A DNA stretch of 64,000 nucleotides, from assembly GCF_004114935.1 (NCBI RefSeq), contig NZ_CP022221.1, forward strand, positions 3,865,001 to 3,929,000, in the 5' to 3' direction. This document shows, piece after piece, positions 28,771 to 41,521 of the stretch. Position 1 is the stretch's first letter. Each line of letters starts with the position of its first letter. Below the pieces are notes generated by a model. The model worked only from the letters and a program-made list of their open reading frames with translations, was not told the DNA's origin and did not search any database. The position numbers were made by a program, and so were the translations under genes. Origin of the DNA: Bradyrhizobium zhanjiangense (lineage in GTDB: Bacteria; Pseudomonadota; Alphaproteobacteria; Rhizobiales; Xanthobacteraceae).

Positions 28771-30492
28771 GTGATTCCGTTTCGGCTATTTGCTTTGTTG
28801 ATAGTTGCGATGGGCCTTACCTGCGGATCGGCGCATGCCGACCGGCGGGTGGCGCTCGTGATCGGCAATTCCGCCTACAAGAGCGCGCCGAAGCTCGGCA
28901 ATCCCGTCAACGATGCCACCCTGGTCGGCGGCATGTTCAAGAAGGCCGGCTTCGATTCCGTGGACGTCAGGCTGGATCTCAGCGCCAGCGAGATGCGGCG
29001 CATGCTGCGCGAATTCGCCGGCAGGTCGCGCGACGCGGACATGGCGGTGATCTATTACGCCGGTCACGGCATCGAGCTCGACGGCAACAACTATCTCATT
29101 CCGACCGATGCCACGCTGGAGACGGACGGCGACGTTCTCGACGAGACCATTCCGGTCGAGCGTGCGCTGTTCGCGGTCGAGCCGGCCAAGCAGCTGCGCC
29201 TGATCATTCTCGACGCCTGTCGCGACAATCCATTCGCGAAGACGATGAAGCGCACGCTGGCCTCGCGCGCGATCGGACGCGGCCTGGCCAAGGTCGAGCC
29301 GACCAGCCCGAACACGATGATTGCCTTCGCGGCCAAGGCTGGGTCGACCGCATCGGACGGCGATGCCAGAAACAGCCCGTTCGCCACGGCACTGGTCGAG
29401 CACCTGCCGAAGCCGGGACTCGATCTGCGCAAGGCCTTCGGCTTCGTCCGCGACGACGTGCTGAAGGCGACCGGCTACAAGCAGGAGCCCTATGTCTACG
29501 GCTCGCTCGGCGGCGACGACGTGCCCCTCGTCGTGAGACCTGCGGCAACCGGTCCCCAAGCCAACCCGCAGGAGGCCATTCGCAGGGATTACGAGCTCGC
29601 GCTCCAGCTCGCGACACGCGACGGCTGGGAAGCGTTTCTGGCGCAATATCCCGATGGCTTCTATGCCAACCTCGCCAAGGGCCAGCTGAACAAGATCGGC
29701 GCCGAAGAGACGCGTGCTGCAGCCGAACAAAAGGCCCGGGCGGCCGAGCAGGAAAAGGCAAGGCTCGTTGCCGAGCGCGCCCAGAAGGCCGAGCAGGAGA
29801 AGGTCGCCGCGGCCGCCAAAGCCGCTGAAGATGCGCGCATCGCCGCGGAGAAGCAAAAGCAGATCGAGCAGGCGAAGGCTGAAGCGGCCGAACGCGAGAA
29901 GGCGGCGGAGGCGGCGGCCGCGAAGGCGCTGGCCGAGAAACAGGCCATGGAAATGGCGGCGGCCGAGGCCGCGGCGAAGCAGGCCGCAGACAAGCAGGCG
30001 GCCGACGCCGAGAGCAAGAAGGTCGCTGCGCTGTCGCCCCCGTCCGCCCCGCAACCTGGCGATCTTGCTAAATCAGTCCAGCTCGAGCTGCGACGCGTTG
30101 GTTGCATGAAGGCTGAGCCGACCGGCGAGTGGAGCGAAACCGCGCAACGGTCGCTGTCACTGTTCAACAGATACGCCGGCACGAAATTCGACGCGAAGCT
30201 TGCGAATACTGATGTGCTCGATGCCCTGAAGACCAAGTCGGACGCATTTGCCCGCTGGTCTGCGACCATGGCTTCAGGGCCGACGGCGATGCCTGCACGA
30301 AGATTGTCTGTCGCCCTGGCTACCGCGTCAGCGACGACAATGAATGCGAGAAGATCCAGGAGAAGAAGCCGGTCGCGACGCGCGAGGACTCGCGGAAGCG
30401 GGACGCAGATCGGAAGGCAACCGAAGCTGCGCCGTCCAAGCCGGAGGCGAGTGGGCAGATGGTCTGCAACAATGCCGGCTGCCGCCCGGTAG
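28771..30492 (+). pseudogene. Caspase-family (peptidase C14-like) protein, frameshifted near its C-terminus
   Basis: Starts at GTG 28771 with a signal peptide (MIPFRLFALLIVAMGLTCGS). The caspase-like domain has both catalytic residues, His in VIYYAGHGIEL and Cys in IILDACRDNPF. A TPR-like helical segment (DGWEAFLAQYPDGFYANLAKGQL) and a long Ala/Glu/Lys coiled coil (about residues 310-425) follow, then a GEWSETAQRSLSLFNR segment. After about 30240 the frame turns into Arg/Ser-rich low-complexity sequence, while frame +2 reads RICPLVCDHGFRADGDACTK and runs to a stop at 30587. One missing base explains both; sequencing error cannot be excluded. I call it a pseudogene only because the native C-terminus is lost; the protease domain is intact. 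Confidence 0.75.
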
Positions 30493-34923: not shown

Positions 34924-35577
34924 CTAGATCCTCGTCAACCCGCACGACGCCGCAAGCCGTACGAGTTGCGCGTCCGTGCGCGCGCCCGTCTTCGACTTGA
35001 TCAGATAGTGATAGTTCTGCACCGTCTTCACACTGAGGTTGAGATGCGCTGCGATCTGCTCGGTGGTGGCGCCGCCGGCGAACTGCCGCAGGATCTCGAT
35101 CTCACGCTCGCCCAGTTGATCCAGCGCCGAGCCGGTCGGCGACAGGCTGTCCTCGGCTAAAATATGCGCGATGTCGTCGCTCATCGCACGCTCGCCGCGC
35201 GCTACGCTGCGGATCGCATTCACGACAGCCGACGGCTCACTGCTCTTGGTGACGAAGCCAGAGGCGCCGGCGCTGAAGGCGGCTTTCACCAGCACGGCTT
35301 CGTTGTGCATGGTGAAGACGAGAATGCGCGCCCGCGGGCTGCGCGCACGGATGTTGCGGATCGCCTCCAGCCCGCTCGCGCCGGGCATCGAGATATCAAG
35401 CACGACGACATCGGGATCGTGCGCCTTGAAGGCACCATAGGCGTCCGCGGCGTTGTCGGCTTCCGCCACGACGCGAAGATCGCCCTGGCTTTCCAGCACG
35501 CGCCGGTAGCCTTGCCGCACGATCGGGTGGTCGTCGACCAGCAGCACGGAGATTCCTGTTGCCGCGACCTCGCTCAT
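34924..35577 (-). CDS. NarL/FixJ-family response regulator
   Basis: 217 residues. The receiver domain begins ISVLLVDDHPIVRQGYRRVLES with the acidic pair; the phospho-acceptor is in VVVLDISMPGASGLE, and TMHN/T and FVTKSS give the switch Thr and Lys. The C-terminal LuxR helix-turn-helix is LGEREIEILRQFAGGATTEQIAAHLNLSVKTVQNYHYLIKSKTG. ATG 35577 lies eight bases past the stop of the histidine kinase gene, so the two form an operon and a cognate pair. Confidence 0.94.
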   Translation of the reverse strand: MSEVAATGISVLLVDDHPIVRQGYRRVLESQGDLRVVAEADNAADAYGAFKAHDPDVVVLDISMPGASGLEAIRNIRARSPRARILVFTMHNEAVLVKAAFSAGASGFVTKSSEPSAVVNAIRSVARGERAMSDDIAHILAEDSLSPTGSALDQLGEREIEILRQFAGGATTEQIAAHLNLSVKTVQNYHYLIKSKTGARTDAQLVRLAASCGLTRI

Positions 35578-35584
35578 CTCGGCC

Positions 35585-36955
35585 TCACGCGGCGAGCGGG
35601 ATGGTGGCGGCCACGCTGAGGCCGCGGGTCGCGGGCAGGATCGACAGCGATCCACCGGCGGCCGCAACACGTTCGCGGATGCCGGTGAGGCCGAAACCGG
35701 CCGATTGCGCGACGCGCTCCGCATCGCCGCCGCCGTCGTCCTCGACACGGATCAGGAGCGCGTCGTCCTCGCCGGCTTGGCGCTCGATGCGCAACGAGAT
35801 CTCGCGCGCCGAGCCGTGACGCAGGGCATTGGTCAGGCATTCCTGCGCCACGCGATAGGCGGTGGTGGCCGCCGGGCCGCTGATGTCGGTGAGATCGCCC
35901 CTGAGGTCGAGCTGGATCGTCGGCCGCGCCGCGCTTTGCGAACGCCAGCTGTCGACGAGATTGACGAGACAGGCCTCGAGCCCAAGCTCCTCGGGCAGCG
36001 GATTGCGCAGCCGCTTCAAGGCGTCACGCAGCGAGGCCATCAGGTGATGGGTGGCCTGCGAGATCATGCGCGCATCCTGCGCGATGCCGTTGTCTTTGCT
36101 TTCCTTCGCGCTCGCCGTCTCGATGGTGTTGGCGAAGGCGAGGATGGCCGATAGATTTTGTCCGAATTCGTCGTGGAGCTCGCGGGCGAGCGCGCGGCGT
36201 TCGTCGTCTCGGATCTCGATCAGCCGCCGTGTCAGCGCCGCGCGCTGCTCGGTCGCTTCCTCCAGCCGGCCGCCGAGCGCATCGACGGCGCTACCGATCA
36301 TCGCAAGCTCCATCGAACGGAAGCGCGGCAGCTTCGTACGATACTGGCCGCGCGCCATGCGCTGCAAGGCGGTGACGATGGTGCGTGCCGGCGCCAGCGC
36401 GTGCGCGATCGCGAGCGAAGCCAGCAGAGCGATTGCCGCCGCCATCAGCAGAGCAACGTCGATCACGTTGAGGATGTACTCCCAGGCGAGCGAGATTGCG
36501 GCGGCGGCGTCCGGCGTCGCAACCACCGTGCCGGCGGCTGCCGCGCGGGGACTGACAGGCCGCACCACCTCGGCGTGGCTGCCGAGGAAGGTCGGCACGA
36601 TCGATGCGAACCAGCGCGGCGGTGTCTTGCCGATGCCTTGGCTCTGGCCGCAGAGCGGCTTCTCGAACGCCGCGGCTGGCTGGAACTCGACGCAGACGCC
36701 GGGCGAGATCAGCTTCATCGTCTCCAGCGTGCGCCAATCCGGAATCGGCAAGAGATGCTCGCGGGCTCTGCTGCTGCGCAGCAAGAGCTCACGCCAGTAC
36801 AGCGCCTGAAGCGCCTGCGCGACCCGCTGCGCGGAGGCCGCCGTCGCCCGGTCGACGCTGCGGTAGGCGTCGAACGTGGCCCACACCGTCGCCGCTCCCA
36901 GGCACAGCGCCACAATGAGCAGCAGACGGGCGACGAGCTGAAGCACGAGGCGCAT
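35585..36955 (-). CDS. NarX/DegS-type sensor histidine kinase
   Basis: 456 residues. An N-terminal membrane helix (LVARLLLIVALCLGAAT), a periplasmic sensor region of roughly 140 residues (with LISPGVCVEF and FEKPLCGQ, two cysteines that could form a disulfide), a second membrane helix (VALLMAAAIALLASLAIAH), a HAMP-like linker, the HisKA_3 box RRALARELHDEFGQNLSAI and an HATPase domain (AQECLTNALRHG, GFGLTGIRERVAAAGG). ATG 36955 is chosen before the first helix. Phosphorylates the regulator encoded next; stimulus unknown. Confidence 0.92.
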   Translation of the reverse strand: MRLVLQLVARLLLIVALCLGAATVWATFDAYRSVDRATAASAQRVAQALQALYWRELLLRSSRAREHLLPIPDWRTLETMKLISPGVCVEFQPAAAFEKPLCGQSQGIGKTPPRWFASIVPTFLGSHAEVVRPVSPRAAAAGTVVATPDAAAAISLAWEYILNVIDVALLMAAAIALLASLAIAHALAPARTIVTALQRMARGQYRTKLPRFRSMELAMIGSAVDALGGRLEEATEQRAALTRRLIEIRDDERRALARELHDEFGQNLSAILAFANTIETASAKESKDNGIAQDARMISQATHHLMASLRDALKRLRNPLPEELGLEACLVNLVDSWRSQSAARPTIQLDLRGDLTDISGPAATTAYRVAQECLTNALRHGSAREISLRIERQAGEDDALLIRVEDDGGGDAERVAQSAGFGLTGIRERVAAAGGSLSILPATRGLSVAATIPLAA

Positions 36956-37167: not shown

Positions 37168-37938
37168 ATGAGTTCTATGACGATTGGACCGATCGCGGGC
37201 CAAGCTGCCGACCCATCCGAGCGCAGCGCACTGCTGTTCTGGATGATCTTCACCGGGCTCTCGGTCTTCGCCGTCGTGCTCTTGTGGCGCTTCGGCCTGA
37301 TCCACCTGATGCTGACCTCCGACCGCACCTACATTTCGAGCGTGATCGCGGTGCTTTATGTCGTCACCTGCGGCCACTGCTTCCTGCGGACGCGGGCGAT
37401 CGCCCGTGAGGGCGCAGCGGCACGGCGCTGCCGGGCGGTGCTGTCGGCCGTCGGCGGCAGCAAGGCGCTGGATGCAGGGGCGACGGCGCTGCCGCGGGGC
37501 CTCGTGCGCGATCACATCGAGAGCCTCGTGACCAAGGCCGCCGCGCAAGGCTACCGGCCGGTCGACCAGACGCTGCTGCTGCGGACGCTGGCCGACCGGC
37601 TGCGCGGCTCCAACGGCTTCGGCGCTTTCGTCTCGGACACGCTGATGAAGCTCGGCCTGCTCGGCACCATCATCGGCTTCATCATCATGCTGGCGCCGAT
37701 CGCGGGCCTGGATGCCGCCGACAAGACCGCGATGCGCTCCTCGATGGGGCTGATGAGCGACGGCATGGCGGTGGCGATGTACACGACGTTGGCGGGCCTC
37801 GTCGGCTCGATCCTGGTCCGCATCCAGTACTACATGCTGGATGCGGCGACCCAGCGGGTGTTCTCGGATGCGGTGGTGCTGACCGAGACCTATGTGACCC
37901 CGGTCCTGGAGCGCAGGGGATCTGGGACGCCGTCATGA
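37168..37938 (+). CDS. TolQ/ExbB/MotA-like proton channel protein
   Basis: 256 residues, three membrane segments. LLFWMIFTGLSVFAVVLLW near the start, then LGLLGTIIGFIIMLAPI and DGMAVAMYTTLAGLVGSILVR, which match the conserved TM2/TM3 of ExbB and TolQ, including the Thr in the TM3 TTLAGL. Such proteins, with a partner bearing one membrane span, use the proton gradient to do work in the envelope. ATG 37168 has AGGAG upstream. The next two genes overlap and encode single-span proteins that would be its partners. Confidence 0.85.
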   Translation: MSSMTIGPIAGQAADPSERSALLFWMIFTGLSVFAVVLLWRFGLIHLMLTSDRTYISSVIAVLYVVTCGHCFLRTRAIAREGAAARRCRAVLSAVGGSKALDAGATALPRGLVRDHIESLVTKAAAQGYRPVDQTLLLRTLADRLRGSNGFGAFVSDTLMKLGLLGTIIGFIIMLAPIAGLDAADKTAMRSSMGLMSDGMAVAMYTTLAGLVGSILVRIQYYMLDAATQRVFSDAVVLTETYVTPVLERRGSGTPS

Positions 37939-38621
37939 TGGATGATTTCGGTCTCTATCCGCGCGAGGAGGCGTTCGATCCGCTCGGCGTGATGCTGTTC
38001 AAGGCGCTCCAGGTGATCGCGTTCCTGTTCTTTCTGGCATTGCTTGCGGTCTCGCCGGATGCCAAGGACGGCAAGATCGATTCCAAGGCCGAGTTTATGA
38101 TCACGCTGGACTGGCCGGACAATCACCCCGACGATCTCGACCTGTTCGTGCAGGACCCTGCCGGCAACATCGCCTGGTACCGCCACCGCGAGGCCGGCTT
38201 CCTCACGCTGGACCGCGACGATCGCGGCGGCGCCAATGACTTCATCATCGTCGCCGGCAAGAAGATCGCCTCGCCCATCCGCGAGGAGATCGTCACCGTG
38301 CGCGGCATCCTCGCCGGCGAATACACCGTCAATGTCTCGCATTTCGTCGCGACGACCGGCGAGCCCGTGACGGCCAATGTGAAGGTGCAGAAGCTCAATC
38401 CGACCGCGCAGGTGATCTTCGACAACAAGTTTACGCTCGACCACACCGGCGACGAGAAGACCGCAGTCCGGTTCCGGCTCGATGCCGAGGGCAAGGTGGT
38501 CAATGTGGATCAGCGGCCGAAGTCGCTGCTGGAGACGTTTCGCAGCAGTTGGCGCAACGGCGGCGATGTCGATCCCAAGACCGGTGTGAGCAAGAACGCT
38601 GTGAGGGTGCGCCGTGATTAG
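37935..38621 (+). CDS. Single-span protein with beta-rich periplasmic domain, putative ExbD-like partner
   Basis: 228 residues, family not recognised. One membrane segment (about residues 17-40, PLGVMLFKALQVIAFLFFLALL) has an Asp just before it in FDPLGV, reminiscent of the proton-carrying Asp of ExbD/MotB. The periplasmic part contains LDWPDNHPDDLDLFVQDPAG and ILAGEYTVNVSHFV, resembling the beta-sandwich of DUF2135-like proteins, ending with a helical region. The ATG overlaps the upstream stop by four bases, so translation is coupled. Function inferred from position only. Confidence 0.7.
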   Translation: MMDDFGLYPREEAFDPLGVMLFKALQVIAFLFFLALLAVSPDAKDGKIDSKAEFMITLDWPDNHPDDLDLFVQDPAGNIAWYRHREAGFLTLDRDDRGGANDFIIVAGKKIASPIREEIVTVRGILAGEYTVNVSHFVATTGEPVTANVKVQKLNPTAQVIFDNKFTLDHTGDEKTAVRFRLDAEGKVVNVDQRPKSLLETFRSSWRNGGDVDPKTGVSKNAVRVRRD

Positions 38622-39219
38622 CCTGCAGACGGTCATCCTCTCGCTGTCGGTCGCCTACGCCGTCGTAGGCGCGCTGCTGCTGGTCGTTCTGGTCTATGCG
38701 CGGCTGCACTGGTCCCTGAAGGCGGTCGCGGTGGTCGTGACCAGCGCCTTCTATGTCGTCAGCTTCACCGAGATGCGCGGGCTGCTCGGCTGGGCCAGCT
38801 CCGACCGGATGCCGGCCGCCTTCAAGCTGCTCCAGGCCCGCATCGTCGAGCCGCATTCGCTGGAGGGCGATCCCGGCTCGATCTATCTCTGGGTCGAGGC
38901 GCTGGACGAAGACAATCGCCCGAGCGGCATTCCGCGGGCGTTCCGGGTGCCTTATGACGACAGGCTGGCCGACAAGACCCATGCGGCGCAGAACGAGATC
39001 GCGGCCGGGCATCCGCAGGGCGGGCGCGCCGCCGATTTCGGCGGCGGTGACGGCAGCCTGATCGACATGGTGCGGGAATATGTGACGCCGAAGACGATCC
39101 TGGAGACCAGTGGCGGCGATTCCTCGACCGGCGAGTTCAATGCCCCGCCGGCCGGCGCGCAAAGCGCTGTGTTCACGCCGCTGCCGCCGCCCCGGATGCC
39201 GCCAAAGGACGAGCAATAG
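38614..39219 (+). CDS. Single-span membrane protein of the TolQ-like operon
   Basis: 201 residues, not recognised. GTG 38614 overlaps the previous gene by eight bases. Hydrophobic segments LQTVILSLSVAYAVVGALLL and AVAVVVTSAFYVVSFTEM are followed by a soluble region with IYLWVEALDEDNRPSGIPRAFRVPY and a Pro-rich end (FTPLPPPRMPPKDEQ). IYLWVEALD has some resemblance to a beta-sandwich of the preceding protein. It probably works in the same envelope complex. Two membrane segments are possible rather than one. Confidence 0.65.
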   Translation: MISLQTVILSLSVAYAVVGALLLVVLVYARLHWSLKAVAVVVTSAFYVVSFTEMRGLLGWASSDRMPAAFKLLQARIVEPHSLEGDPGSIYLWVEALDEDNRPSGIPRAFRVPYDDRLADKTHAAQNEIAAGHPQGGRAADFGGGDGSLIDMVREYVTPKTILETSGGDSSTGEFNAPPAGAQSAVFTPLPPPRMPPKDEQ

Positions 39220-39286
39220 GCCCTTCACCATCGCGGCAGCGACCCGCTGGAAAACCGACCCGCGCCGGCGCATGTTCTTGACGTCC

Positions 39287-39323
39287 CTCAATTTGGCCTT
39301 ATCGGCTTCCGATAAGATTTGAG
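39287..39323. promoter_or_regulatory. Nested hairpin upstream of the phosphoesterase-kinase unit
   Basis: CTTATCGG and CCGATAAG (39298-39316, three-base loop) lie inside CTCAA and TTGAG (39287-39323). It stands just before the GGAGG of the phosphoesterase gene. TTGACG at 39278 may be a -35 element. It could be an operator or an RNA hairpin affecting translation. Confidence 0.45.
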
Positions 39324-39335
39324 GGTGGAGGGTAC

Positions 39336-40076
39336 GTGCTCCTAGCTGTCTTCTCGGATATCCACGGCAACCGGCAGGCGTTCGAGGCGTGCCTGAAGAT
39401 CGCCCGTGCGAAGGGCGCGGAGCGCTTCGTCCTGCTCGGTGATTTCGTCGGCTATGGCGCCGATCCGGAATGGGTCGTGGACACAGCGATGGAGCTCGTC
39501 GCCGGCGGCGCCATTGCCGTGCGCGGCAATCACGACCAGGCGGTCAATTCCTCGGCCGAGACCATGAATGTCGAGGCGCAGGTCGCGATCGAATGGACCC
39601 GCGGCCGGCTCGATAGCGCGCAGCGGCGGTTCCTGGCCGAATTGCCGATGCTGGTGGAGGACGACGGCCGTCTGTTCGTGCATTCGGAAGCCTCCAGCCC
39701 GCAGCGCTGGCACTATGTCCGATCAACGGCCGATGCCGCCAAGAGCCTGATATCGACGCCCGCCCACGTCACCTTCTGCGGCCACATCCACAGGCCGGCG
39801 CTCTATTCGATGTCGGTGACGGCGAAGATGACGAGCTTTGTGCCGAAGACCGACGTGTCCGTGCAGCTCTTGCGCGGGCGGCAATGGCTTGCCGTGCTCG
39901 GTTCGGTCGGCCAGCCCCGCGACGGCGATCCATCCGCGGCCTTCGTGCTGTTCGACACGGTTTCGTGCCAGATCACCTATTGCCGCGCGCCCTACGATAT
40001 CGAGACGGCCGCAAACCGGATCCGCGAGAACGGCCTGCCGCATTGGCTGGCCGACCGCCTCTCGCAGGGGCGCTGA
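39336..40076 (+). CDS. Calcineurin-like metallophosphoesterase
   Basis: 246 residues with all five metallophosphoesterase motifs: FSDIHGN, VLLGDFVGYGADPEW, RGNHDQAV, FVHSEA and FCGHIHRPA. The size suits a YfcE/MJ0936-like phosphodiesterase or a protein phosphatase; neither can be chosen by sequence. GTG 39336 has GGAGG upstream. Five bases separate it from a Ser/Thr kinase gene, so a kinase-phosphatase pair is possible. It follows the TolQ-like operon by 116 bases. Confidence 0.9.
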   Translation: MLLAVFSDIHGNRQAFEACLKIARAKGAERFVLLGDFVGYGADPEWVVDTAMELVAGGAIAVRGNHDQAVNSSAETMNVEAQVAIEWTRGRLDSAQRRFLAELPMLVEDDGRLFVHSEASSPQRWHYVRSTADAAKSLISTPAHVTFCGHIHRPALYSMSVTAKMTSFVPKTDVSVQLLRGRQWLAVLGSVGQPRDGDPSAAFVLFDTVSCQITYCRAPYDIETAANRIRENGLPHWLADRLSQGR

Positions 40077-40081
40077 CGGCG

Positions 40082-41521
40082 ATGCCGAAACCGCTGGTCA
40101 AATCAGGCGCTGTGATCGACGGCTTCACCATCGGCGAGTGCGTGCATGCTGGCGGAATGGCGACGCTGTGGACCGTCACCCATCCCGGCATCGATGTGCC
40201 CATGCTGATGAAGATCCCGCGGGTGTCGGAGGGCGAGGATCCCGCCGCGATCGTCTCTTTCGAGATGGAGATGATGATCCTGCCGCGGCTCGCAGGGCCG
40301 CACGTGCCGGCCTGTTTCGGCACCGGGGATTTCGCGCACCAGGCCTATGTCGTGATCGAGCGCATCGTCGGCACGACGCTCTACAAGCGGCTGCCGGACC
40401 TGCCGCTGCCCTATGACGAGGCGCGGCAACTCGTGGCGAAGATTGCGACCGCGCTCGCCGACCTGCACCGGCAGAACGTGATCCATCACGACATCAAGCC
40501 AAGCAGCATCATGTTCCGCGAGAGCGGCGAGGCCGTGCTGATCGATTACGGCCTGTCGCACCACAACCATCTGCCTGATTTGTTGCAGGAAGAATTTCGC
40601 CTGCCTTACGGGACCGCGCCTTACATGGCCCCCGAGCGGCTGCTTGGTGTTCGTGACGATCCGCGCAGTGACCTGTTCTCGCTCGGCGTGCTGCTCTATT
40701 TCTTCACTACGGGCGAGCGTCCGTTCGGCGAGGGTGAGACGTTGCGCGCGATGCGGCGCCGGCTGTGGCGCGATCCCTATCCGCCGCGCGCATTGCGCGC
40801 TGACTATCCGCCCTGGCTCCAGGAGGTGGTGCTGCGCTGCCTCGAGATCGAGCCGGTGTGGCGCTATCCAACGGCATCACAGCTCGCCTTCGACCTCACC
40901 CATCCGGATCAGGTCAAGCTCACCGCGCGCGCGGAACGGCTGAAGCGTGATTCCCTGGGCATCGCGTGGCGGCGCCGCTTCAATCAGGGCGTCATGCAGC
41001 CACGGGCGAAGTCGGATGTCGCGGCGCAGATCGCGTCGAGCCCAATTCTTGCGGTGGCGCTCGACACGGTGGAGGGCGCACCGGAGCTGAACGAAGCGCT
41101 CCGCGTGACGACCGCGCGCATCCTCGCCACACTGCCCTCGGCGCGGCTTGCCTGCCTCAACGTGCTCAAGCTCAACCGCATCGCGATCGACCGGACGCTC
41201 GACGAGCAGGGCTCCAACAAGCATATCGACCGCCTGGTCGCGCTCCGGCATTGGGCGACGCCCCTCAAGCTGGATGAGAGCCGGCTGTCGGTTCATGTGC
41301 TGGAAGCCGTCGATCCCGCCGCTGCGATCCTGGAGTTCGCCGCGGTCAATCATCTCGACCACGTCATCATCGGGGCACGGCAGAGCTCGTTCCGCCGTAC
41401 GCTGCTCGGCAGCGTCTCGGCCAAGGTGGCCTCGGAAGCAGCCTGCACCGTCACCGTGGTGCGGCCGCCGCGAATGGCGGGGGATGCAGCCGAAGCGGAT
41501 GCCGGCGAGGCGGCCGGATAG
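40082..41521 (+). CDS. Ser/Thr protein kinase fused to a universal-stress-like domain
   Basis: 479 residues. Kinase core: glycine-rich loop GECVHAGGMATLW, invariant Lys44 (MLMKIPR), catalytic loop HHDIKPSSIMF (Asp137, Lys139), metal-binding Asp155 as DYG, then YMAPERLLG. Two departures: HHD for HRD, and Ser142 where Asn normally binds magnesium. After about residue 345 a UspA-like domain ends HVIIGARQSSFRRTLLGSVS, akin to the ATP-binding loop of universal stress proteins. ATG 40082. Partner and substrates unknown; phosphoesterase and TolQ-like genes precede it. Confidence 0.85.
   Translation: MPKPLVKSGAVIDGFTIGECVHAGGMATLWTVTHPGIDVPMLMKIPRVSEGEDPAAIVSFEMEMMILPRLAGPHVPACFGTGDFAHQAYVVIERIVGTTLYKRLPDLPLPYDEARQLVAKIATALADLHRQNVIHHDIKPSSIMFRESGEAVLIDYGLSHHNHLPDLLQEEFRLPYGTAPYMAPERLLGVRDDPRSDLFSLGVLLYFFTTGERPFGEGETLRAMRRRLWRDPYPPRALRADYPPWLQEVVLRCLEIEPVWRYPTASQLAFDLTHPDQVKLTARAERLKRDSLGIAWRRRFNQGVMQPRAKSDVAAQIASSPILAVALDTVEGAPELNEALRVTTARILATLPSARLACLNVLKLNRIAIDRTLDEQGSNKHIDRLVALRHWATPLKLDESRLSVHVLEAVDPAAAILEFAAVNHLDHVIIGARQSSFRRTLLGSVSAKVASEAACTVTVVRPPRMAGDAAEADAGEAAG

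Follow-up and report, generated by a model that had tools for sequence, protein, structure and literature searches.

We have analysed a 64,000-nucleotide window of the Bradyrhizobium zhanjiangense genome (assembly GCF_004114935.1, contig NZ_CP022221.1, positions 3,865,001 to 3,929,000; the genome is one contig of 9.34 Mb) and find that three of its genes, here called A, B and C, form a real, conserved and widespread three-gene unit, ABC, that occurs across hundreds of proteobacterial genomes; no prior description of it was found in the literature searched. Gene A (37168..37938, + strand; an in-frame ATG at 37177 is a possible alternative start) encodes a predicted MotA/TolQ/ExbB-family channel subunit of 253-256 residues, gene B (37935..38621, +) a protein with a single transmembrane helix and a predicted TerD-like beta-sandwich, and gene C (38614..39219, +, GTG start) a protein with two predicted transmembrane helices. 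We put at about even the chance that their products make up a stator-type complex serving periplasmic alcohol oxidation that depends on pyrroloquinoline quinone (PQQ).

The case for a unit rests on its distribution and spacing. A named-genome scan of GTDB returned at least 495 relatives, of which the best 80, from Alpha-, Beta- and Gammaproteobacteria, were kept as the named loci; A is found in 80/80 of these and C in 79/80. Of the 75 named loci in which both genes were called, 72 have no more than 50 bases between the end of A and B (median 3 bases, with an overlap in 23), and the distance from B to the start of C is at most 100 bases in 64 of 72 loci, so that the arrangement in the window, with overlaps of 4 bases between A and B and of 8 between B and C, is not due to chance. 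Further counts come from samples of the order (347 genomes), the phylum (319 genomes) and the genus (98 genomes), which overlap and are not independent, and in which we distinguish type-I B (E below 1e-40) from a diverged version, type II. A relative of B is present in 37/347 order genomes (31 type I, 6 type II only), in 12/319 phylum genomes (11 type I, one type II) and, at a threshold of E 1e-3, in 85/98 genus genomes; from the order, 17 type-I and 8 type-II loci, 25 in all, were fetched. Rhizobial phages and prophage-like stretches also have type-II B: a relative is encoded by 6 phage records, of which two represent a single phage, 16-3, and by 84 viral-contig stretches. The 80 viral loci that were kept (L182-L261) include at least 42 with an A-like open reading frame on the same strand as B. 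Examples of type-II B are L076 8584-9722, L081 8603-9669 and L101 6016-6552 (Rhizobium phage 16-3 p040).

By its sequence, A belongs to the MotA/TolQ/ExbB channel family, with a match to the MotA_ExbB profile (PF01618) of 35.1 bits against a curated cut-off of 22.9, in agreement with the preliminary description of this DNA, which had called it a channel of the TolQ/ExbB/MotA type. Reading of the protein reveals about four hydrophobic segments, and the motifs G-L-x-G-T-x-x-G-F and G-M-x-x-A-x-x-T-T are kept: with residues counted from the 37177 start, G163, G167 and T204 are present in 107/107 aligned A sequences and T164 in 103/107. We take these conserved Gly and Thr positions to be the pore residues of the family, which has two pore-lining helices.

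B occupies the place of ExbD, TolR or MotB beside the channel. Its one transmembrane helix spans residues 16-38 and is followed by the predicted beta-sandwich at about residues 51-206, a soluble domain that is probably periplasmic. Neither B nor C has any Pfam match up to E = 1, and the ExbD profile (PF02472) finds two matches in the host genome, neither of them at B. These sit at 5.84 Mb and 8.68 Mb, each some 0.2 kb away from a different ExbB-type gene, so that A has no obvious partner in either. The earlier proposal that the usual partners are replaced here by two unrecognised proteins is borne out by these results. Besides its helices, C comprises a small beta domain and a tail of low confidence, near the end of which a Pro is conserved. 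A small, membrane-anchored, Sel1-repeat-like protein, not seen in the window, is encoded directly before A in eight order loci (L064, L067-L070, L073-L075) and just upstream of A in 7/80 named loci too; it is a possible fourth subunit.

The fold of B is predicted to be TerD-like. Alignment of 146 B sequences reveals 13 soluble-domain residues that are identical in all of them, and the invariant acidic residues D67, D69, D95, D96, E118 and E174 are suggestive of putative, TerD-like Ca2+ binding. Some results speak against this assignment: Foldseek returned nothing significant, the TerD likeness being structural only; the top five rows of a second structural comparison include chains not titled TerD; and the TerD profile PF02342 finds a match in 0/21 genomes, the host genome included. 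DUF2135 (PF09906) gives a sub-threshold match in 6/14 B homologues, with a best E of 0.051.

The helix of B exists in two kinds. An ExbD-like Asp at the helix start, as in D-P-F-T-D-L-L-F-N, is present in 99/146 B sequences, 92 of which have Asn at +4 and none Lys, whereas Val or Ala stands in place of this Asp in 47/146, and in 47/47 of these Lys is found at +4. The 47 sequences comprise 41 from the genus, all with Val at the Asp site, 5 from near relatives and one from a gammaproteobacterium (L165) that sits among the Asp-type B, its nearest relative there being 69% identical versus 47% to any Val-type sequence. A tree of 111 B sequences needs two Asp-to-Lys changes, forced by well-supported branches, and the 47/47 versus 0/99 distribution of Lys, in two lineages, argues that loss of the Asp and gain of the Lys are coupled. 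The window's B (codons 19-23, V-M-L-F-K, 37989..38003, +) is of the Val/Lys kind and lacks the ion-carrying Asp in its transmembrane helix, which rules out textbook ion coupling for this protein; coupling, if kept, would have to run via another residue, either Asp15, one turn earlier, or Lys23. The double loss of a supposedly essential Asp together with the gain of a Lys makes the question of ion coupling directly testable.

ABC co-occurs with PQQ alcohol dehydrogenases. With TIGR03075 as the marker for these enzymes, 31/31 type-I genomes of the order sample have a match, at E 9e-130 or better; 29/31 are judged to exceed the curated cut-off (G252 and G276 are judged, from their E-values, to fall below it) versus 91/316 other genomes (Fisher p 9e-13, kinship ignored), and 0/6 type-II order genomes reach it. 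The dehydrogenase is present in 11/11 type-I genomes of the phylum sample versus 62/308 of the remainder, one type-II genome included (p 5e-8), and the cut-off is passed by 120/347 order and 73/319 phylum genomes overall. A set of 53 genomes, made up of those that carry 50 of the named loci and three from the phylum sample, has 50 over the cut-off and three with partial matches. Within the genus, TIGR03075 is matched in 85/85 carriers of B and 12/13 non-carriers, the sole genome without a match also being without B.

Physical linkage to such genes is frequent but not general, and loci with PQQ-cluster genes beside ABC are found in Alpha-, Beta- and Gammaproteobacteria. PQQ/XoxF-cluster markers, which were named by NCBIfam matches above cut-off and several of whose queries were taken from these very loci, occur in the fetched flanks of 20/80 named, 6/17 type-I order and 4/15 genus loci. 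In L084 about 2.3 kb separate C from the end of a XoxF gene, with a methanol-related cytochrome beyond that gene, and L082 has a SoxYZ-like carrier, a relay hydrolase and a MoxJ-like gene on the A side; among the matches listed, a XoxF-type gene lies about 3 kb from B in G012 and G085 and 7-31 kb from B in G134, G208, G213, G429, G310, G456, G642 and G656. In one genome, G296, a type-II ABC adjoins PQQ dehydrogenase-like, cytochrome-like and vWA-like genes (L066, 3896-9259; names by reading), and a type-I ABC is found elsewhere (L065).

Several observations weigh against a role in PQQ-dependent oxidation. The window's own family supplies 8/11 of the type-I genomes in the phylum sample, and as the genomes are related, the Fisher values overstate significance; the corresponding test in the genus is not significant (p = 0.13). 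Co-occurrence is moreover one-way, since a type-I ABC is missing from 91 of the 120 order genomes that pass the cut-off and from 12 of the 97 genus genomes with a PQQ dehydrogenase, so that ABC is not required for the enzyme. The fetched flanks of 60/80 named loci contain no PQQ marker, and in many other order genomes the dehydrogenase genes, among the matches listed, are distant or on other contigs. The window's genome is itself without physical clustering, the nearest TIGR03075 gene among the matches listed being at 3.28 Mb and B at 3.90 Mb, about 0.62 Mb apart. Type-II relatives are carried by phages and by genomes in which no PQQ dehydrogenase passes the cut-off, and gammaproteobacterial loci bring other neighbours: 29 named loci have an L,D-transpeptidase-like gene on the upstream side (e.g., L116 8094-8732), and 19 have a vWA-like gene on the downstream side (e.g., L123 4017-5441; names by reading).

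In another explanation, ABC is a stator-type envelope complex of general role, engaged in cell-wall or outer-membrane upkeep or in energising a transporter, and its association with PQQ enzymes reflects shared lifestyle and ancestry, not a common function. TolQR and ExbBD serve the cell envelope, the neighbourhoods of ABC vary by clade, and the majority of the named loci are free of PQQ markers in their fetched flanks; we nevertheless hold this explanation to be possible rather than probable, as the PQQ match extends to every type-I carrier in the order and phylum samples, although the cut-off is passed by only the minority of genomes noted above, and PQQ-cluster genes stand beside ABC in three proteobacterial classes. 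The complex of the genus might instead be a degenerate, non-conducting remnant in which the Asp of B has been lost and B and C act only as a scaffold or sensor. The uniform Val in the aligned genus sequences speaks for this, but the strict identity of 13 soluble-domain residues of B, the intact Gly/Thr motifs of A and the retention of B across most of the genus all argue otherwise, and the accompanying gain of Lys in both lineages looks like retuning; we consider a remnant improbable.

A further explanation concerns two genes downstream of C, a kinase-phosphatase pair that according to the preliminary description could control the motor, and holds that they regulate ABC by phosphorylation. Gene M (39336..40076, +, GTG start), a calcineurin-like metallophosphoesterase (Metallophos_2, PF12850, 71.4 bits), begins 116 bases after C, and gene K (40082..41521, +), which encodes a Ser/Thr kinase-Usp fusion by Pfam (Pkinase 96.4 bits, Usp 50.9 bits), follows M after 5 bases; the open reading frame positions confirm the run of five same-strand genes with all of the overlaps and gaps originally described. 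At thresholds of E 1e-30 for M and E 1e-60 for K, 78 of the 98 genus genomes contain B, M and K, 6 contain M and K without B, 5 B and M without K, one B and K, one B alone, one M alone, and 6 none of the three. M is thus found in 90/98 genomes and M with K in 84/98, within 60 bases of each other in 81/84, and B lacks K in 6/98. Of the 83 genus genomes that have both B and M, 50 place M on the same strand and no more than 1.5 kb downstream of B, which makes a link peculiar to the genus conceivable and is what can be said for regulation by the pair; the gap is 1.8-9.8 kb in 26/83, and the two are on different contigs in 7/83 (an upper bound, as some genomes are fragmented).

Beyond the genus, this picture is not upheld. 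M is found in 0/80 named, 0/17 type-I order and 0/8 type-II order loci, and K at 40% identity or better in none of these, a single weak match to K (25%) being present in one named locus. The trio therefore occurs regularly without M and K outside the genus, the very outcome that the preliminary description had named as refuting its proposal, and neither the expectation that the five genes stay together in other genomes nor general control of the motor by a kinase/phosphoesterase pair can be maintained. M and K are a module of their own, not part of the trio, and their link to ABC may be peculiar to Bradyrhizobium; given also the genus genomes in which one is present without the other and the 116-base gap between C and M in the window, regulation of ABC by this pair is very improbable.

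On the other side of the trio and divergent from it, the window encodes a sensor histidine kinase (35585..36955, -; HisKA_3/HATPase by Pfam) and its partner, a LuxR-type response regulator (34924..35577, -; Response_reg and GerE by Pfam). This two-component system (34924-36955) is the more frequent companion of the kinase-linked ABC, and its histidine kinase is conserved beside most such loci of the genus. A match to that kinase at 38% identity or better occurs in 43 fetched ABC stretches from 39 different genomes, 36 of them from the genus, plus L057, L059 and L061 (46-48% identity), in which the response regulator is 54-61% identical; at that level the kinase is not found in the XoxF-linked genus loci L082-L085, nor in L088, L090, L058 and L060. 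The divergent histidine kinase likely regulates ABC. Elsewhere in the window (28810-30492), a 560-residue open reading frame has a start that resembles a caspase-type peptidase, by reading of the gene list.

Comparison with known systems brings out both likenesses and differences. A falls in the same Pfam family (PF01618) as the channels of MotA/MotB and PomA/PomB, and its last helix, as we read it, presumably resembles MotA more than ExbB; set against this are the predicted TerD-like domain of B, where the soluble part of MotB is an OmpA-type peptidoglycan-binding domain, the extra gene C, and the loss of the Asp in the window's clade. The trio shares with TolQ/TolR and ExbB/ExbD the pairing of a channel with a single-span partner in one operon, and most B homologues have P-x-x-D at the helix start, which is the ExbD motif; it differs in that B has no PF02472 match and another soluble domain, no TonB or TolA is present in the unit, and C is added. 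Among NCBIfam and PADLOC models, A is matched best by those of ZorA, from the Zorya ZorA/ZorB anti-phage motor. We reject ZorA as the identity of A, which scores 18.7 bits against a cut-off of 500 and 16.4 against 100 and is much shorter than ZorA; a scan limited to the five window genes finds no match to another Zorya protein. TerD proteins (tellurite/stress) are soluble, whereas B lacks a sequence-level Pfam match, is membrane-anchored and is paired with a channel. JGI gives two of the 120 listed B homologues the name YfaP (DUF2135 family), but the matches of B homologues to that family are below cut-off, and we know of no stator-type helix in it. Finally, the presence of ABC in or near several XoxF/PQQ clusters is a likeness to the XoxF/Mxa and lut lanthanide systems. 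In the searched passages of the lanthanide literature, TonB-dependent uptake is mentioned (PMC7391723 and PMC12628762), as are ordinary exbB/exbD genes (PMC10848612), and the trio is not; for the terms searched, PMC11996626, PMC9291206 and PMC12482762 yielded no passage.

The combination of a channel, a single-span partner with an acidic head, a third subunit and this genomic company points to a stator-type complex that would act in the periplasm on PQQ-dependent alcohol oxidation. A, B and C would then assemble in the inner membrane into a single complex, a stator of the MotA/TolQ/ExbB kind, with A as the multi-helix channel, B as a single helix inside A that would carry its TerD-like acidic domain, perhaps metal-binding, into the periplasm, and C as a third dedicated membrane subunit. 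Ion flow through A and B might move or clamp the periplasmic domain of B, and ABC would thereby serve XoxF/ExaF-type dehydrogenases in the periplasm, with B acting on the maturation, metal loading (perhaps with Ca2+ or a lanthanide) or supply chain of PQQ enzymes. A bolder version, which we consider unlikely, is that ABC is a machine driven by the proton-motive force whose TerD-like head rotates or swings, binds Ca2+ or a lanthanide and delivers it to, or strips it from, PQQ dehydrogenases, and that rhizobia have exchanged the coupling Asp for a Lys-based design, arisen twice, that alters ion use or direction. If true, ABC would be the first motor of the stator type devoted to the handling of metallo-cofactors.

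Stator-type motors are few (flagellar, Tol, Ton, Zor and gliding), and each added member has revealed another use of the proton-motive force. The trio described here has a partner architecture of its own and points to lanthanide- and calcium-dependent alcohol oxidation, a process whose accessory functions are still being mapped.

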